Shown here: positions 55,545 to 62,871 of the stretch, piece after piece
How positions within the stretch are numbered: position 1 is the first letter of the stretch
Layout of the letters: every line of letters starts with the position of its first letter
Source: Halolamina pelagica
Lineage (GTDB): Archaea; Halobacteriota; Halobacteria; Halobacteriales; Haloferacaceae
Assembly (NCBI RefSeq): GCF_900115675.1
Contig: NZ_FOXI01000004.1
Span: 186,001-250,000, forward strand
Direction of reading: 5' to 3'
DNA: 64,000 nt
The notes under the pieces: generated by a model
The model's database searches: none
What the model was told of the DNA's origin: nothing
Seen by the model: only the letters and a program-made list of their open reading frames with translations
Program-made: the position numbers and the translations under genes

Positions 55545-56738
55545 TCAGACGCCCTGGCCCATCAGGTGGCTCCGGAGCACGTCCGGCGCCTTCGTCGCCG
55601 CCTCGGTGTTCAGGACCACCGCCTCGTCCTCACTTCCCAGTGTGCCATCCTCGGCGAGCGCCCACAGGCCCGCCGCGGCGACGCCGCCGGCCAGTCCCAC
55701 CTCGACCGTCTCGGTCGAGGCCACCGCGACCGCACTCTCCAGCGCGTCGGGGTCCTCGACGGTCAGCGCCTCGCCGCCGGTCTCTCGGATCGCGGCCAGC
55801 GCCAGCGGGCCGCCCGGCGGGTCCGCGACTTCGAGTTCGCCGACGATCGTGTCCGGCGTCTCCCACGGCTCGGTGTCGTCCCGGCCGGCCTGCCACGCAG
55901 CCGCGATGGGCGCACAGCCGTCGGCCTGGACGGCGTACACCGGCGGCAGGTCGTCGATCAGCCCCAGTTCCACGCACTCCCGGAGGCCGTCGACGACGCC
56001 GACGACGAGTTCGCCCGTGCCCGCGGGGAGGACGACGGCGTCCGGCGCGTCCCAGTCCCGATCCGCGAGGAGTTCGTAGGCGACCGTCTTCAGCCCGTCG
56101 TGGCGGAACGGCGAGGCGAACGCGCCCAGGTCGACGTAGTCGGACTGGAGCTCCTCGGTGAGCGCGTTGACGGCGTCGCCGAGCCGGCCGGGGACGACCT
56201 TCATCTCGCCGCCGTGGACGTTCACCATCGCCTTGTTCGAGAACGGCGAGCGCGTCGGGACGAACGCGTAGGAGCGCAGGTCAACCTGGCCGGCGTAGGC
56301 CGCCATCGACTGGCCGGCGTTGCCCGGCGAGGCGCAGGCGACGAGCTCCGCGCCGGACGCGTCGGCCGCGGTCACCGCGACGGCGAGCCCGCGGTCGAGC
56401 ACGGAACCGGTCGGGTTGCGCGCCTCGTCTTTGATCGCGACCCCACCGAGGCCGAGTTCGTCGGCGAGGCGGGGGGCGTCGACGCTCGGGGTCCCGCCCT
56501 CGGCGGCCGAGAGCGCCGAGTCGGCCTCGAAGGGGAGTACCGTGTCGCGATCCCAGGCTCGCGGGCCCGCGCGCACCGCGTCGGGGTCGACGCCGTCGAG
56601 GTCGTACTCCGGCCGGCGTGGCGCGCCGCAGTCCGGGCACGGGCCGGCGCCGGCGATGGCCGCCGGCTCGGCGTCATCGGCGGCGAGGCTGGCGCCGCAG
56701 TCGGTGCAGACGAGTCCGACGAACGCGTCGCTGAACAT
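55545..56738 (-). CDS. Threonine synthase-like PLP-fold protein lacking the PLP lysine
   Basis: A 397-residue fold-type II protein with a zinc ribbon at the start (C11, C14, C34, C37). It keeps the family's loop KDEARNPTGSVLDRG, but where threonine synthases have GSFKDRG, residue 114 is Leu and the Lys that would bind PLP is gone. The phosphate-side loops SPGNAGQS (137-144) and LPAGTGELVVGV remain. Without the Schiff-base lysine, aminotransferase or lyase chemistry should fail, so it could be a binding or regulatory protein. The C-terminal half and length match threonine synthase. It lies beside a thiolase/DUF35 pair. Confidence 0.8.
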   Translation of the reverse strand: MFSDAFVGLVCTDCGASLAADDAEPAAIAGAGPCPDCGAPRRPEYDLDGVDPDAVRAGPRAWDRDTVLPFEADSALSAAEGGTPSVDAPRLADELGLGGVAIKDEARNPTGSVLDRGLAVAVTAADASGAELVACASPGNAGQSMAAYAGQVDLRSYAFVPTRSPFSNKAMVNVHGGEMKVVPGRLGDAVNALTEELQSDYVDLGAFASPFRHDGLKTVAYELLADRDWDAPDAVVLPAGTGELVVGVVDGLRECVELGLIDDLPPVYAVQADGCAPIAAAWQAGRDDTEPWETPDTIVGELEVADPPGGPLALAAIRETGGEALTVEDPDALESAVAVASTETVEVGLAGGVAAAGLWALAEDGTLGSEDEAVVLNTEAATKAPDVLRSHLMGQGV

Positions 56739-56842: not shown

Positions 56843-58021
56843 ATGAATGGCGTGCGCGTGGCCGGCGTGGGGCTCACCCACTTCGGCTCGCACCCCGAAC
56901 GGACCGGCCGCGACCTGTTCGCCGAGGCGGCGCTGAACGCGCGGGACGACGCCGGCGTCCCGCTCGACGACGTCGAACAGTTGAACGTCGGCAACTTCGC
57001 CGGCTCGCTGCTGGAGGGGCAGGGCCACACGGCGCCGCTGCTGGCCGAGGCCGCGGGCCTCGACTGTCCGGCGACGCGCTACGAGGAGGCCTGCGCGTCG
57101 GCCGGCGTCGCGGTCCGCGAGGCGGTCCGGGCCGTCCGCTCGGGCGAGGCCGACGTCGTGCTCGCCGGCGGGATGGAGCGGATGACCAACAACGACACCC
57201 CGGAGACGACCGAGGCGCTCGCGATCGCCGCCGACGAGCTGTTCGAGATCCGCGCCGGGGTCACCTTCCCCGGCGCGTACGCGCTGATGGCGACGGCCTA
57301 CGCAGAGGCGTTCGACGTGGACGAGGAGACCCTGAAAACCGACCTCGCGAACGTCGCGTCGAAGAACCACGACAACGCGCTCCCCAACGAGTACGCGCAG
57401 TACCAGCGCGAGATCTCCGTCGAACAGGCGCTCGACGCCCCGCCGGTCGCGGAGCCGCTGGGACTGTTCGACTGCTGTCCGGTCACCGACGGGGCCTCGG
57501 CGGTCGTCCTCGTGAGCGAGGAGTACGCGGCCGACCACGACCTCTCCGCGGACGTGGCGGTCGTCGGTACCGGACAGGGGACCGACCGGATGGCGCTGCA
57601 GGACCGCGAGTACCTCGCCCGGACGCCCGCGGCCGACGACGCCGCGGCGATGGCCTACGACGACGCGGGCATCGACGCCGCCGACGTGGACGTGGCGGAG
57701 GTCCACGACTGCTTCACGATCGCCGAGGTGCTCGCGATCGAGTCCCTCGGCTTCTACGAGCCCGGCGAGGGCCTCGGCGCGGCCCGGCGCGGCGAGACCC
57801 GGGCCGACGGCGAACTCCCCGTCAACCTCTCGGGGGGCCTGAAGGCGAAGGGCCACCCCGTCGGCGCGACCGGCGGCTCACAGATCGCGGAGATGACGCG
57901 ACTGCTCAGGGGTGACCACCCCAACAGCGACGAGGTGCCGGACGCCGAGGTCGGCGTGACCCACAACGCGGGTGGCACGGTCGCGTCTGCAGTCGTCCAC
58001 GTGCTGGAGGTGGCAGAATGA
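56843..58021 (+). CDS. Thiolase family protein (acetyl-CoA acetyltransferase type)
   Basis: A 392-residue thiolase. The nucleophilic Cys is C84 in EEACASAGVAV, the catalytic His is in AKGHPVGATGGSQ, and CFTIAEV precedes it. Instead of the second active Cys in the C-x-G motif, the end reads THNAGGTVAS, as in archaeal and SCP2-type thiolases. The stop overlaps a DUF35 gene. Archaeal thiolases of this type work with HMG-CoA synthase in the mevalonate route; no synthase is here, so a beta-keto thiolase of fatty acyl or acetoacetyl type is also possible. Confidence 0.86.
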   Translation: MNGVRVAGVGLTHFGSHPERTGRDLFAEAALNARDDAGVPLDDVEQLNVGNFAGSLLEGQGHTAPLLAEAAGLDCPATRYEEACASAGVAVREAVRAVRSGEADVVLAGGMERMTNNDTPETTEALAIAADELFEIRAGVTFPGAYALMATAYAEAFDVDEETLKTDLANVASKNHDNALPNEYAQYQREISVEQALDAPPVAEPLGLFDCCPVTDGASAVVLVSEEYAADHDLSADVAVVGTGQGTDRMALQDREYLARTPAADDAAAMAYDDAGIDAADVDVAEVHDCFTIAEVLAIESLGFYEPGEGLGAARRGETRADGELPVNLSGGLKAKGHPVGATGGSQIAEMTRLLRGDHPNSDEVPDAEVGVTHNAGGTVASAVVHVLEVAE

Positions 58022-58389
58022 GTGACGCCGGCTTCGACGAGTGGCTCCACGCCTTCGTCGCCGACGACGGCTACTACCTCGCCTGCGAGAACGGCCACGG
58101 CCACCTGCCGCCGCGGCGGGTCTGCCCGGACTGTGGCTCGACCGAGTTCGCCGAGGAGTCCCTGCCCGAGACGGGAACCGTCGCGGCGGTCACGACCGTC
58201 CACGTCCCGGCGCCGTCGTTCGAGGCGGACGCGCCCTACGACACCGTCGTCGCCGACTTCGGCGCCGTCCGGCTGACGGGCGTCGTCGACGCCGAGCCCG
58301 GAACGGTCGAGATCGGCGACGCTGTCGAACCCTCCGTGGGCGCGAGCGAGACGACCGGCGACGACGTGCTGGTGCTGCGCCCGGTCTAA
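58018..58389 (+). CDS. DUF35 zinc-ribbon/OB-fold protein, thiolase partner
   Basis: A 123-residue protein with a rubredoxin-like zinc ribbon (C23, C36, C39, with His in the first pair position) and an OB-fold (GTVAAVTTVHVPAPSFEADA). In archaea a DUF35 subunit bridges thiolase and HMG-CoA synthase and may shuttle the CoA intermediate. The ATG overlaps the thiolase stop (ATGA), a coupling seen in such pairs. Cytosolic. Confidence 0.88.
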   Translation: MSDAGFDEWLHAFVADDGYYLACENGHGHLPPRRVCPDCGSTEFAEESLPETGTVAAVTTVHVPAPSFEADAPYDTVVADFGAVRLTGVVDAEPGTVEIGDAVEPSVGASETTGDDVLVLRPV

Positions 58390-59526: not shown

Positions 59527-60201
59527 ATGCTGAGTGACGCGATGGAGGACTATCTGAAAGCGATCTACGTGCTCCAGCGCCAGGATGGCGCGCCCGTCTC
59601 CACGTCTGCCGTCGCGGAGTACCTCGACAAGACGCCGCCGACGGTGACGAGCATGATGGAGAAACTCGACGACCGTGGGCTGATCGACCGCGAGAAGTAC
59701 CGCGGCGTCGAGCTGACCGAGGAGGGCGAGACGGTGGCGCTCGAGGTGGTCCGGCACCACCGACTGCTCGAGGCGTACCTCGCCGAACATCTCGACTTCG
59801 ATTGGACCGAGGTCCACGACGAGGCGGACACCCTCGAACACCACATCAGTGAGGACCTGGAGCGCCGGATGGCCGAGGCGCTCGACGATCCGGTCGTCGA
59901 TCCCCACGGCGACCCGATCCCGACCGAGACGCTGGAGCCGGTCGACGAGGCGGCCGGCGAACGACTGAGCAGTTTCGGCGTCGGCGACCGCGTCGTCGTC
60001 TCCCGGGTGCTCCACCGCGAGCAGGACGAACTCGACTACCTCTCGGCGGCGGGGCTCACGCCGAACACGACGATCGAGATCGTCGACGTGGCGCCGTTCG
60101 GGATGGTGACGGTCCGCCTCGACGACGGCGAGGAGCAGAGCCTCCCCGAGGACGTCGCTGACGCGATCCGGGTCAGGGCGACGACGGGGGAGGTCGCCTG
60201 A
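59527..60201 (+). CDS. DtxR/IdeR-type metal-dependent regulator with SH3-like domain
   Basis: A 224-residue full-length DtxR-family repressor. Residues 1-60 are the winged helix (EDYLKAIYVLQRQD, then EYLDKTPPTVTSMMEKLDDR), followed by the dimer/metal domain with HHRLLEAYLAEHL and LEHHISEDLERRM, and a C-terminal FeoA/SH3-like domain (VGDRVVVSRVLHRE onward). It senses Mn(II) or Fe(II). Together with the GDT1-type transporter gene two bases downstream it points to manganese or calcium homeostasis. gattttttgac at about 59493-59503 is a plausible BoxA, giving a leaderless transcript. Confidence 0.9.
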   Translation: MLSDAMEDYLKAIYVLQRQDGAPVSTSAVAEYLDKTPPTVTSMMEKLDDRGLIDREKYRGVELTEEGETVALEVVRHHRLLEAYLAEHLDFDWTEVHDEADTLEHHISEDLERRMAEALDDPVVDPHGDPIPTETLEPVDEAAGERLSSFGVGDRVVVSRVLHREQDELDYLSAAGLTPNTTIEIVDVAPFGMVTVRLDDGEEQSLPEDVADAIRVRATTGEVA

Positions 60202-60203
60202 GC

Positions 60204-60977
60204 GTGCCGGGAGCGATCGCGCTTCCCCTGCAGTCGGGGCTCGACGCCGTCGTCGGGCGGTACGCCGAACACGGCCCGCTAGCGGCCGCGTTCCTGGCGA
60301 ACCTGCTCGCGACCTTCGGGGACAAGGGACAGTTGGTCGTCATCACCCTCGCGACCCGGTACGACGCCAAGGCGGTCTTCGTCGGCGCCATGGGGGCCTT
60401 CACGCTCTGGTCGGCGCTGGAAGTCGCGTTCGGGCAGTACGTCGTCTCGGTGCTGCCCGCGGGCGTGGTGACGCTGATCACCGGCGGCCTGTTCGTCGCC
60501 TTCGGGCTCTGGACGGTTCGGTCCTCGATCCGGGGGTTCCGCGACGACGAACAGTCGCTGTCGCTGACCTCGGGTACGGGTCTCGACGTGGGGCTCACGG
60601 GGATGCTCGTCCCGGACGCGCTGCTCGCGCGAGTCGGCAGCTACGGCGGCCTGCTGACGGGCTTCCTGTTCGTGCTGTTCGCCGAGTTCGGGGACAAGAC
60701 CCAACTGCTGACGATCAACCTCGCGGCGACGTTCCCCGACGCCCCCGTGTCGGTGTTCGTCGGCGTCGTCGCCGCGCTGGCGCTCCGGACCGGCATCGAC
60801 GCCGTCATCGGCGAGAGGGTCGAGGCGGTACTGCCGACCCACTACATCGAGGCCGGTGCCGCCCTCGTCTTCCTCGCGTTCGGGGTCGTCGTCCTCGGCG
60901 CGCCGACGGTGGTGCTCTACGCCGCGATCGGGGCGCTGATCGTGGCGGCCGCCGTCGGCGTGCTTCGACGCCGCTGA
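60204..60977 (+). CDS. GDT1/TMEM165 (UPF0016) cation transporter
   Basis: A 257-residue membrane protein with two copies of the GDT1 module and about six helices. The second motif is a proper EFGDKTQL, but the first reads TFGDKGQL: the Glu that binds the metal in the usual ExGDK[TS] is Thr and the Ser/Thr is Gly. Family members export Mn2+ or exchange Ca2+. Loss of one acidic ligand would weaken one half-site, so function may be altered. GTG start two bases after the regulator gene. Confidence 0.87.
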   Translation: MPGAIALPLQSGLDAVVGRYAEHGPLAAAFLANLLATFGDKGQLVVITLATRYDAKAVFVGAMGAFTLWSALEVAFGQYVVSVLPAGVVTLITGGLFVAFGLWTVRSSIRGFRDDEQSLSLTSGTGLDVGLTGMLVPDALLARVGSYGGLLTGFLFVLFAEFGDKTQLLTINLAATFPDAPVSVFVGVVAALALRTGIDAVIGERVEAVLPTHYIEAGAALVFLAFGVVVLGAPTVVLYAAIGALIVAAAVGVLRRR

Positions 60978-61014
60978 GGAATGGGGCGGTTTTTTCGCAG
61001 TTCCGCCCCCTGCA

Positions 61015-61773
61015 GTGACTGTGTTCGAAGTCGTTCCGTCGCTCGTCGCCGGCGCCGCGTTCGGGCTCGCACTCGCGGCGCCGCCGGGGCCGATGAACGC
61101 GGTCATCGCCGAGGAGAGCGTGCTCCGCGGCTGGGTCGCGGGCGTGAAAGCCGGGTTGGGCGCGGGGCTGGCGGACTTCGTCTTCTTCCTGCTCGCGCTG
61201 GCCGGGGTGGTCGGCGTCGTCCAGCAGTACCCGACGCTTCAGGGCGTGCTGTTCGGCGTCGGCGGGCTCCTGATGGTCTACTTCGCCTACGGCGCCGCCA
61301 ACAGCGTCCGGGCGACGTTCGCGCCGTCCTCGGTCGACCGGCGGGCTGGAACCGGGACGGACGACCAGGGGGGAATCGACGCGGGCGGCGACACGAGCGC
61401 GCCGGCCGACCTCGGCGAGTCGACCGGGTTCCGTCGCGCGTTCGTGCTCGCGCTCACGAACCCCTACCAGATCCTGTTCTGGCTGACCGTCGGCGTCGGC
61501 CTGCTCGACCCCGGGCGGTTGGACGTGCTGGCGGTGGTCCCCTACGTCGGCGACGCGCTGACTGGCGTGTTCGTCGTCGAGACCGGCAGCCCCGCGCTGA
61601 TCGTCGGCCTGTTCGGCGGCATCGCGCTCTGGCTCGCCTGTTTCCCGGCGGCGCTGGTACAGGCCGGCCGCCGGGTGGACTCGTTCGCGCCCGCCGTCGC
61701 CGCCCTCAGCGCGCTGGTGCTCGGGGGGTTCGGCGTCAGTTTCCTCCTCGAAGCGTGGCGCGTGCTGGGCTGA
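61015..61773 (+). CDS. LysE-family translocator
   Basis: A 252-residue membrane protein with about six helices, starting VTVFEVVPSLVAGAAFGLAL. The LysE pattern is APPGPMNAVIAEESVLRGWVAG and, in the second half, RRAFVLALTNPYQILFWL. A hydrophilic loop of about 45 residues lies between helices three and four. Members export amino acids or metals. GTG at 61015 or 61021. It may belong to the preceding transcript (37 bases after it). Confidence 0.85.
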   Translation: MTVFEVVPSLVAGAAFGLALAAPPGPMNAVIAEESVLRGWVAGVKAGLGAGLADFVFFLLALAGVVGVVQQYPTLQGVLFGVGGLLMVYFAYGAANSVRATFAPSSVDRRAGTGTDDQGGIDAGGDTSAPADLGESTGFRRAFVLALTNPYQILFWLTVGVGLLDPGRLDVLAVVPYVGDALTGVFVVETGSPALIVGLFGGIALWLACFPAALVQAGRRVDSFAPAVAALSALVLGGFGVSFLLEAWRVLG

Positions 61774-61824
61774 CCGGCGTCGACTGACGAACCGCTTTTC
61801 ACAACTGCACCCGACCACCGGTGC

Positions 61825-62871
61825 ATGTTCGACAAATCGACGTGGATCCGGCTGCCCCGGAACGTCGTCGTCGGCCACGGGGTGCTCGCGGAACTCGGCG
61901 ACGCCGTCGGCGAACTCTACCTCTCGGGCACGCCGCTGGTCGTGACCAGTCCCTCGCCGAACCGGATCGTCGGCGACCGCGTCCGCGACCAGCTCCCGGA
62001 CTCGGAGACGGTGGTCGTCGAGGAGGCCAGCTTCGACCAGGTGCAGAAGGTCATCGACGCCGCCGAGCGGGCCGAGGCGGGCTACCTCGTCGGCCTCGGC
62101 GGCGGCAAACCCATCGACACCGCGAAGATGGCCAGCGACGAACTCGACGTGGGGTTCGTCTCCGTCCCGACCGCGGCGAGCCACGACGGCATCGTCTCCG
62201 GGCGGGGCTCGATCCCGGAGGGGGACACGCGCCACTCCGTCGCCGCCGAGCCGCCGCTGGCGGTCGTCGCCGACACCGAGGTGATCGCCGACGCGCCGTG
62301 GGAGCTGACAACTGCAGGCTGTGCGGACATCATCTCGAACTACACCGCCGTCGCGGACTGGAAGCTGGCCCAGCGCCTGAAGGGCGTCGAGTACTCGGAG
62401 TACGGCGGCGCGCTCTCCCAGATGACCGCGGAGATGCTGGTCGACAACGCGGACCTCATTCGGCCGGGACTGGAGGAGTCGGCGTGGATCGTGGTGAAGG
62501 CGCTGGTCGCCTCGGGCGTGGCGATGTCCATCGCCGGCTCCTCGCGGCCCGCCTCGGGCGCGGAGCACCTCTTCTCCCACCAACTCGACCGGATCGCCCC
62601 GGGACGGGCGCTCCACGGCCACCAGGTCGGCGTGGGGTCGATCATGACCGCGTACCTCCACGACGGCCCGGACGGGCTCTGGAAGGACATCCGCGACGCG
62701 CTCGCGAGCCTCGACGCGCCGACGACGGCCGAGGGCTTGGGCGTGAGCGACGAGGAACTGCTGGAGGCGCTGACCAGCGCCCACGAGATCCGGGACCGCT
62801 ACACGGTGCTGGGCGACGGGATCACCGAGAAGGCCGCGCGGGACGTGGCGGAGACGACGGGCGTGATCTAG
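61825..62871 (+). CDS. egsA: NAD(P)-dependent glycerol-1-phosphate dehydrogenase
   Basis: A 348-residue enzyme that reduces dihydroxyacetone phosphate to sn-glycerol-1-phosphate, the backbone with the stereochemistry of archaeal lipids. The nucleotide motif is GGGKPIDT (92-99); the zinc ligands by alignment pattern are D168 in CADIIS, H248 in GAEHLFS and H264 in LHGHQVG. Length and sequence are typical. TAG stop shares CTAG with the converging NUDIX gene. Single gene, essential in archaea. Confidence 0.95.
   Translation: MFDKSTWIRLPRNVVVGHGVLAELGDAVGELYLSGTPLVVTSPSPNRIVGDRVRDQLPDSETVVVEEASFDQVQKVIDAAERAEAGYLVGLGGGKPIDTAKMASDELDVGFVSVPTAASHDGIVSGRGSIPEGDTRHSVAAEPPLAVVADTEVIADAPWELTTAGCADIISNYTAVADWKLAQRLKGVEYSEYGGALSQMTAEMLVDNADLIRPGLEESAWIVVKALVASGVAMSIAGSSRPASGAEHLFSHQLDRIAPGRALHGHQVGVGSIMTAYLHDGPDGLWKDIRDALASLDAPTTAEGLGVSDEELLEALTSAHEIRDRYTVLGDGITEKAARDVAETTGVI

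Follow-up and report, generated by a model that had tools for sequence, protein, structure and literature searches.

What does a threonine synthase-like protein do once it has lost its PLP lysine? This question is raised by a gene of Halolamina pelagica that lies in the window (the whole stretch of 64,000 nucleotides analysed here), where an open reading frame on the minus strand encodes a protein of 397 residues, hereafter P0001, with the following features:

55545..56738, minus strand: lysine-less threonine synthase-like protein P0001, 397 aa (fold-type II PALP domain and N-terminal zinc ribbon)
56397..56399, minus strand: codon 114, CTC (Leu), at the PLP-lysine position (K61 of Thermus threonine synthase by alignment)
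56628..56708, minus strand: zinc ribbon Cys11, Cys14, Cys34 and Cys37 (translation; conservation across relatives)

P0001 matches the Pfam PALP domain over residues 77-378 (204 bits), its AlphaFold2 model (pLDDT 93.8) adopts the fold-type II fold, and its top Foldseek matches are the threonine synthase structures 6NMX, 2ZSJ and 1UIN. Its best NCBIfam match, PRK08197, is below the cut-off (249.9 versus 303 bits), as is its score for TIGR00260 (128.4 versus a curated cut-off of 167.1). The closest named relative is H. rubra, with 92% identity along the full protein.

An earlier note on this DNA had read the family motif GSFKDRG as GSVLDRG, with a leucine at residue 114. Translation and alignment to solved structures bear this out: L114 in the motif NPTGSVLDRG (within ...KDEARNPTGSVLDRG...) aligns with the PLP lysine K61 of Thermus threonine synthase. 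The alignment of homologues suggested by the same note reveals that the loss is conserved, since leucine is found in 7/7 Halolamina genomes and lysine is absent from all sampled Haloferacaceae positional copies. Across 196 aligned sequences, position 114 is a lysine in 83 (four of which are more distant threonine synthase-like genes of the H. pelagica genome itself) and another residue in 113, namely Leu (61), Thr (12), Ala (11), Val (7), Arg (7) or Tyr (5), and more rarely His (3), Ile (2), Asp (2), Phe, Asn or Gly. A sequencing error at codon 114, which the note would have deduced from homologues all bearing lysine, is rejected and retains next to no probability: seven independent Halolamina genomes agree and leucine is also present in Haloferax, Halobellus and others. 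Nor does another lysine appear to have taken over the PLP role, the second outcome that would have gone against the claim. At the sequence level, no substitute conserved lysine was found in the lysine-less members, whose conserved lysine columns (103, 169, 217 and 383) are those of the lysine-bearing members. Two sequences at the margins of this survey deserve mention. In Halobacteriales archaeon QS_9_68_17 (L108), an asparagine stands at the lysine position in an otherwise intact pocket, which may mean that the lysine was lost very recently or that this metagenome-assembled genome contains an assembly error. A small genome of the same order (G098, L296:1-1701) encodes a protein with an arginine at this position, the loop PVGNGEL, Asp301 and the tail RSQMMSRGV, and this protein is another lysine-less lineage.

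The earlier note had also taken the remainder of the cofactor pocket to be preserved, and this part of the claim fails at the following sites:

56007..56027, minus strand: former PLP-phosphate loop, residues 238-244 PAGTGEL (PTGGGVG in lysine-bearing orthologues, PVGNAGN in Thermus threonine synthase)
55836..55838, minus strand: E301, aligned with A240 of Thermus threonine synthase

With the Thermus residues assigned the roles that they have in the structures of that enzyme, P0001 keeps N140 (N87 in Thermus), G240 (G187), T378 (T317) and R212 (R160), so that the asparagine at PLP O3' (N140) and the threonine at the ring nitrogen (T378) are both in place. By contrast, the phosphate loop G-N-A-G-N reads G-T-G-E-L, and the PLP contacts N188, G190, N191 and A240 of the Thermus enzyme are replaced by T241, E243, L244 and E301, with further changes of G318 to E379, T85 to P138 and N154 to A206. 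Position 301, which lies at the PLP ring in this fold, is a glycine in all lysine-bearing members and a glutamate in 77/77 lysine-less members of the Haloferacaceae. Besides K114, the columns kept in lysine-bearing and lost in lysine-less members are G241, M219, K216, G301, V243 and Y237. Over independent pairs, the correlation of K114 with G241 and G301 goes in the same direction, with pairs too few for significance. The lysine by itself is no sign of activity, because two Natrinema sequences nested in a lysine-less clade (L063 and L087) carry it together with a broken phosphate loop and E301. Concerning the zinc ribbon, which the note had described as preserved, the four cysteines do persist in Halolamina, but many relatives within the Haloferacaceae, among them Haloferax, Halobellus and Haloplanus, have lost it.

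How often the cofactor site was lost was addressed with a tree from which column 114 was omitted along with 18 more columns of the pocket or linked to it, and in which deep lysine-bearing branches were included. This tree requires six changes of lysine state, at least four of which are forced by well-supported branches. Two of the changes fall inside single genera: in g51, G146 has an arginine while its sisters G113 and G139 have the lysine, and in g32, G136 has a threonine while G143 and G092 have the lysine. In earlier trees without the deeper lysine-bearing sequences, the lysine-less groups were basal, and adding those sequences made lysine basal. We prefer the later tree, although support for its base is not firm; that lysine is the ancestral state also follows from its role throughout the fold-type II family. 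On this reading, the Haloferacaceae lost the lysine and the phosphate loop, and several other lineages of haloarchaea did so independently.

Genomic context offers a further view on these losses. The neighbours in the window are as follows:

56843..58021, plus strand: thiolase, a neighbour outside the system (Pfam; adjoins the gene almost only in Halolamina)
58018..58389, plus strand: DUF35/OB-fold zinc-ribbon protein, a neighbour outside the system (Pfam; neighbour comparison)
59527..60201, plus strand: SirR/DtxR-type metal-dependent regulator with a FeoA domain (Pfam)

The position beside a thiolase/DUF35 pair, to which the note had drawn attention, is real in the window, but this neighbourhood is not conserved: among about 140 loci, the pair (clusters c42/c43, five members) adjoins the gene almost only in Halolamina, and a functional link to it was rejected. 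In many haloarchaea, the order is a divergent crtI-like gene, the gene itself, the SirR-type regulator, a GDT1 transporter, LysE, HD and AlaX, with the regulator directly downstream on the same strand at 45 loci; in Halolamina, the gene is inverted relative to this common order. Within the window, the SirR-FeoA regulator, the GDT1 transporter, LysE and a glycerol-1-phosphate dehydrogenase stand in a row (59527-62871), an order conserved in many haloarchaea. The crtI-like/SirR/GDT1 order is common to the lysine-less forms of Haloferax, Halobellus and Halogeometricum and to the lysine-bearing forms of Halobacterium, Haloarchaeobius and Halostella. Likewise, the Natrialbaceae order LSm-gene-GGGP synthase, all on the same strand at L082, L085, L094, L102 and other loci of this family, includes lysine-bearing (Natrialba, Halopiger) and lysine-less (Natrinema) forms; the gaps in it are mostly large and no operon was shown for this arrangement. 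Most of the lysine-less sequences occupy a locus that lysine-bearing forms share, and the two kinds of gene there are positional orthologues. Metal-related neighbours were discarded as a marker of lysine loss, as they flank lysine-bearing orthologues too.

The gene has remained under purifying selection after the loss. Its dN/dS between Halolamina species is 0.11-0.22, compared with 0.10-0.14 for a lysine-bearing paralogue (C18:150474-151661), no listed match contains an internal stop, and dozens of residues are invariant across the lysine-less lineages. The search for a second, intact threonine synthase proposed in the earlier note was successful: a canonical enzyme is encoded elsewhere in the genome (C22:93780-95219) and has relatives in 96/99 genomes. 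The H. pelagica genome encodes 11 other PALP proteins in addition to P0001. Among them, the C18 paralogue (L124) is lysine-bearing and tailless; it also occurs in several other Haloferacaceae genera and is without counterpart in many others, e.g. g5, g24 and g28. A further threonine synthase-like protein (L006, C28:6727-7680) keeps the lysine in GVLKDRAT and has the unusual phosphate loop FSMGDGCT. Whether the two paralogue classes show complementary loss was examined with a Fisher test, which gave no significant result, and subfunctionalisation between them is a lead only. In Haloferax volcanii, a lysine-less copy is expected between HVO_0817 and the SirR gene HVO_0819 (PMC4300041, PMC11349517), and its position suggests the name HVO_0818. 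Yet a transposon insertion mutant of thrC3 (HVO_2969) in this species requires added glycine, serine and threonine (PMC4300041), and the lysine-less copy is therefore no replacement for thrC3.

If not catalysis, what has been preserved? The trait that persists is found at the extreme C-terminus, together with a set of residues in the body of the protein:

55548..55574, minus strand: C-terminal tail RSHLMGQGV, directly before the stop codon (conservation across members)
55830..55856, minus strand: residues 295-303 PDTIVGELE (P295, D296, G300 and E303 invariant in tail-bearing members)
56220..56222, minus strand: N173, invariant in tail-bearing members
56184..56186, minus strand: R185, invariant in tail-bearing members and proposed partner of the tail carboxylate

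The typical C-terminus is RSHLM[G/S]xG[I/V], and M-x-x-G-[IV] stands directly at the stop in 161/192 members, all 161 of which have N173, R185, P295, D296, G300 and E303. We compared 49 lysine-bearing positional members, 77 lysine-less members of the Haloferacaceae, 38 other lysine-less members and 23 lysine-bearing paralogues from genomes that also carry a lysine-less copy. In the first three groups, the six residues are present at 100%, and M393 and G396 at 95-100%; in the paralogues, these eight residues are mostly lost. N173 is gone throughout the tailless lysine-bearing copies (C18-type, the g3 pair L207/L208, L195/L198 and L197), together with most of the others. Against a docking role, five lysine-less members without a tail still keep these six groove residues. 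In the AlphaFold2 model of P0001, confidence is low in residues 381-397 (the last 17 or so). Such a tail seems to be particular to haloarchaea, because nearly all of the 19 matches fetched from beyond the order are canonical threonine synthases without it. On the strength of this co-variation, tail and linked residues may form a docking interface, a proposal for which we see the balance as even.

From the observed losses, selection, tail and co-variation, we propose that P0001 is a PLP-free fold-type II pseudoenzyme that has kept an assembly or partner-docking function, a reading that we consider probable as a whole. Its first part is the firmest: conserved loss, purifying selection, the absence of a replacement lysine and a separate threonine synthase make it very probable that the protein is a pseudoenzyme. 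The earlier note had suggested a pseudoenzyme with a new function. This idea, widened to a function that may be either new or residual, is supported on these four grounds and not on an otherwise intact pocket or a conserved thiolase/DUF35 pair. A function in assembly or regulation is a weaker proposition, placed just short of an even balance. In the scenario that we have in mind, the ancestor at this locus would have been a lysine-bearing PLP enzyme with a zinc ribbon and the conserved tail, from which lysine and phosphate loop were lost repeatedly. The cofactor site of the Haloferacaceae would also have gained acidic residues (E243, E301 and usually E/D379), so that both binding and use of PLP have most likely ceased. 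The fold, the tail, the co-varying residues and some of the pocket residues on the substrate side (S137, N140 and R212) are retained. The tail would dock on N173/R185/P295/D296/G300/E303 of its own or of a neighbouring subunit, R185 possibly meeting the terminal carboxylate, and the protein may serve as a partner in assembly or as a regulator that responds to a ligand, and not as a catalyst. Tail and groove could also be plain quaternary structure without regulatory meaning. More speculatively, the haloarchaeal PLP enzyme might have had a second, non-catalytic tail/groove function from the start, with one lineage after another dropping catalysis and retaining just this function, and the tailless paralogues keeping only catalysis. 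We regard such a bifunctional ancestor as rather doubtful; if true, evolution would have split a bifunctional PLP enzyme time and again, and the regulatory complex involved would be of a new kind.

Other explanations share part of this evidence. The terminal G-x-G-[I/V]-COOH might insert itself into the catalytic pocket of a different fold-type II enzyme, so that the protein would regulate a true PLP enzyme, in line with the conservation of a flexible tail up to its terminal Ile/Val, with the number of other PALP proteins in the genome, and with the binding of C-terminal Ile tails by CysK homologues, including CYSL-1, which is devoid of biosynthetic activity (PMC5562914). We find this unlikely, as the tail co-varies with residues of its own protein, which favours self-docking, and no partner was found; a crude check of haloarchaeal CysE, in which none of the reading frames examined showed a GxGI tail, also counts against it. 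Somewhat less likely still is a new PLP-independent enzyme, in which E243, E301 and E379, joined in most relatives by E206 (Ala in P0001), would build a new site for catalysis or metal binding where the cofactor used to sit. Among the lysine-less Haloferacaceae, E243 and E301 do not vary, E206 reaches 82% and E/D379 is frequent, and a metal-dependent regulator and a GDT1-type cation transporter are common neighbours of the orthologue. However, E243 is absent from most other lysine-less lineages, and the metal-related neighbours do not track the loss.

A further possibility is that PLP or PMP is still bound without the Schiff-base lysine and supports an altered reaction. Lysine loss alone is indeed no proof of lost PLP binding, because a fold-type II Lys-to-Ala mutant (PDB 3x44, among the structure matches listed) was solved with substrate bound, and N140, G240 and T378 are kept in P0001. 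Moreover, some PLP enzymes of another fold work with a histidine in place of the lysine (ColD). The heterogeneity of residue 114, with no single conserved substitute, the replaced phosphate loop and the glutamate at the ring site nevertheless make this quite improbable. A decaying relic, as the repeated loss of catalytic residues and the disappearance of the zinc ribbon in a subset might suggest, is harder still to reconcile with the low dN/dS, the uninterrupted frames and the invariant residues, and we consider it very improbable.

To our knowledge, pseudoenzymes of the PLP fold-type II class have been little described. A survey of open-licence papers on threonine synthase pseudoenzymes, haloarchaeal threonine synthases and the locus tags of H. 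volcanii turned up neither an account of this family nor any mention of HVO_0818 (the H. volcanii copy presumed by position), which is weak evidence of novelty. At a single locus, the cofactor site has disappeared repeatedly, in two cases inside one genus, with lysine-bearing orthologues nearby, and these losses form a natural series in which to look for roles of a PLP enzyme beyond catalysis. It also comes with a warning for annotation, since the closest family models name the lysine-less proteins threonine synthase although another gene fills this role.

Compared with known systems, P0001 shares with threonine synthase (ThrC; PRK08197/TIGR00260; 2ZSJ, 1UIM, 6NMX, 2D1F) the fold, the domain order, NPTG(S/T)xxDRG and the equivalents of N87, T317 and R160, but it differs by the missing lysine, the change of the GNAGN loop to GTGEL, the glutamate at the A240 position, scores under both curated cut-offs and the RSHLMGxG[I/V] tail. 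The lysine-bearing haloarchaeal orthologues (GTFKDRGQ...PTGGGVGLV; Halobacterium, Haladaptatus, Halopiger and others) are closer in locus, zinc ribbon, tail and co-varying residues, and are distinguished by having kept the lysine, the GGGVG loop, G301 and some 25 residues linked to these. For a shift from synthesis to binding, which we suspect for P0001, the nearest parallel is CYSL-1 of C. elegans, a CysK homologue that has lost biosynthetic activity and binds the C-terminus of EGL-9 (PMC5562914). It belongs to another subfamily, and there it is the partner's tail that docks, whereas P0001 carries the conserved tail itself. More generally, the tails of CysE, CdiA-CT and EGL-9 dock on CysK homologues (PMC5562914), which may serve as a precedent, and not as proof, for the tail of P0001. 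Finally, the cysteine synthase complex, in which the CysE tail sits in CysK, likewise relies on a conserved flexible C-terminal tail with a terminal isoleucine; in P0001, such a tail is borne by the PALP-fold protein itself, and its docking site would be the groove proposed here.
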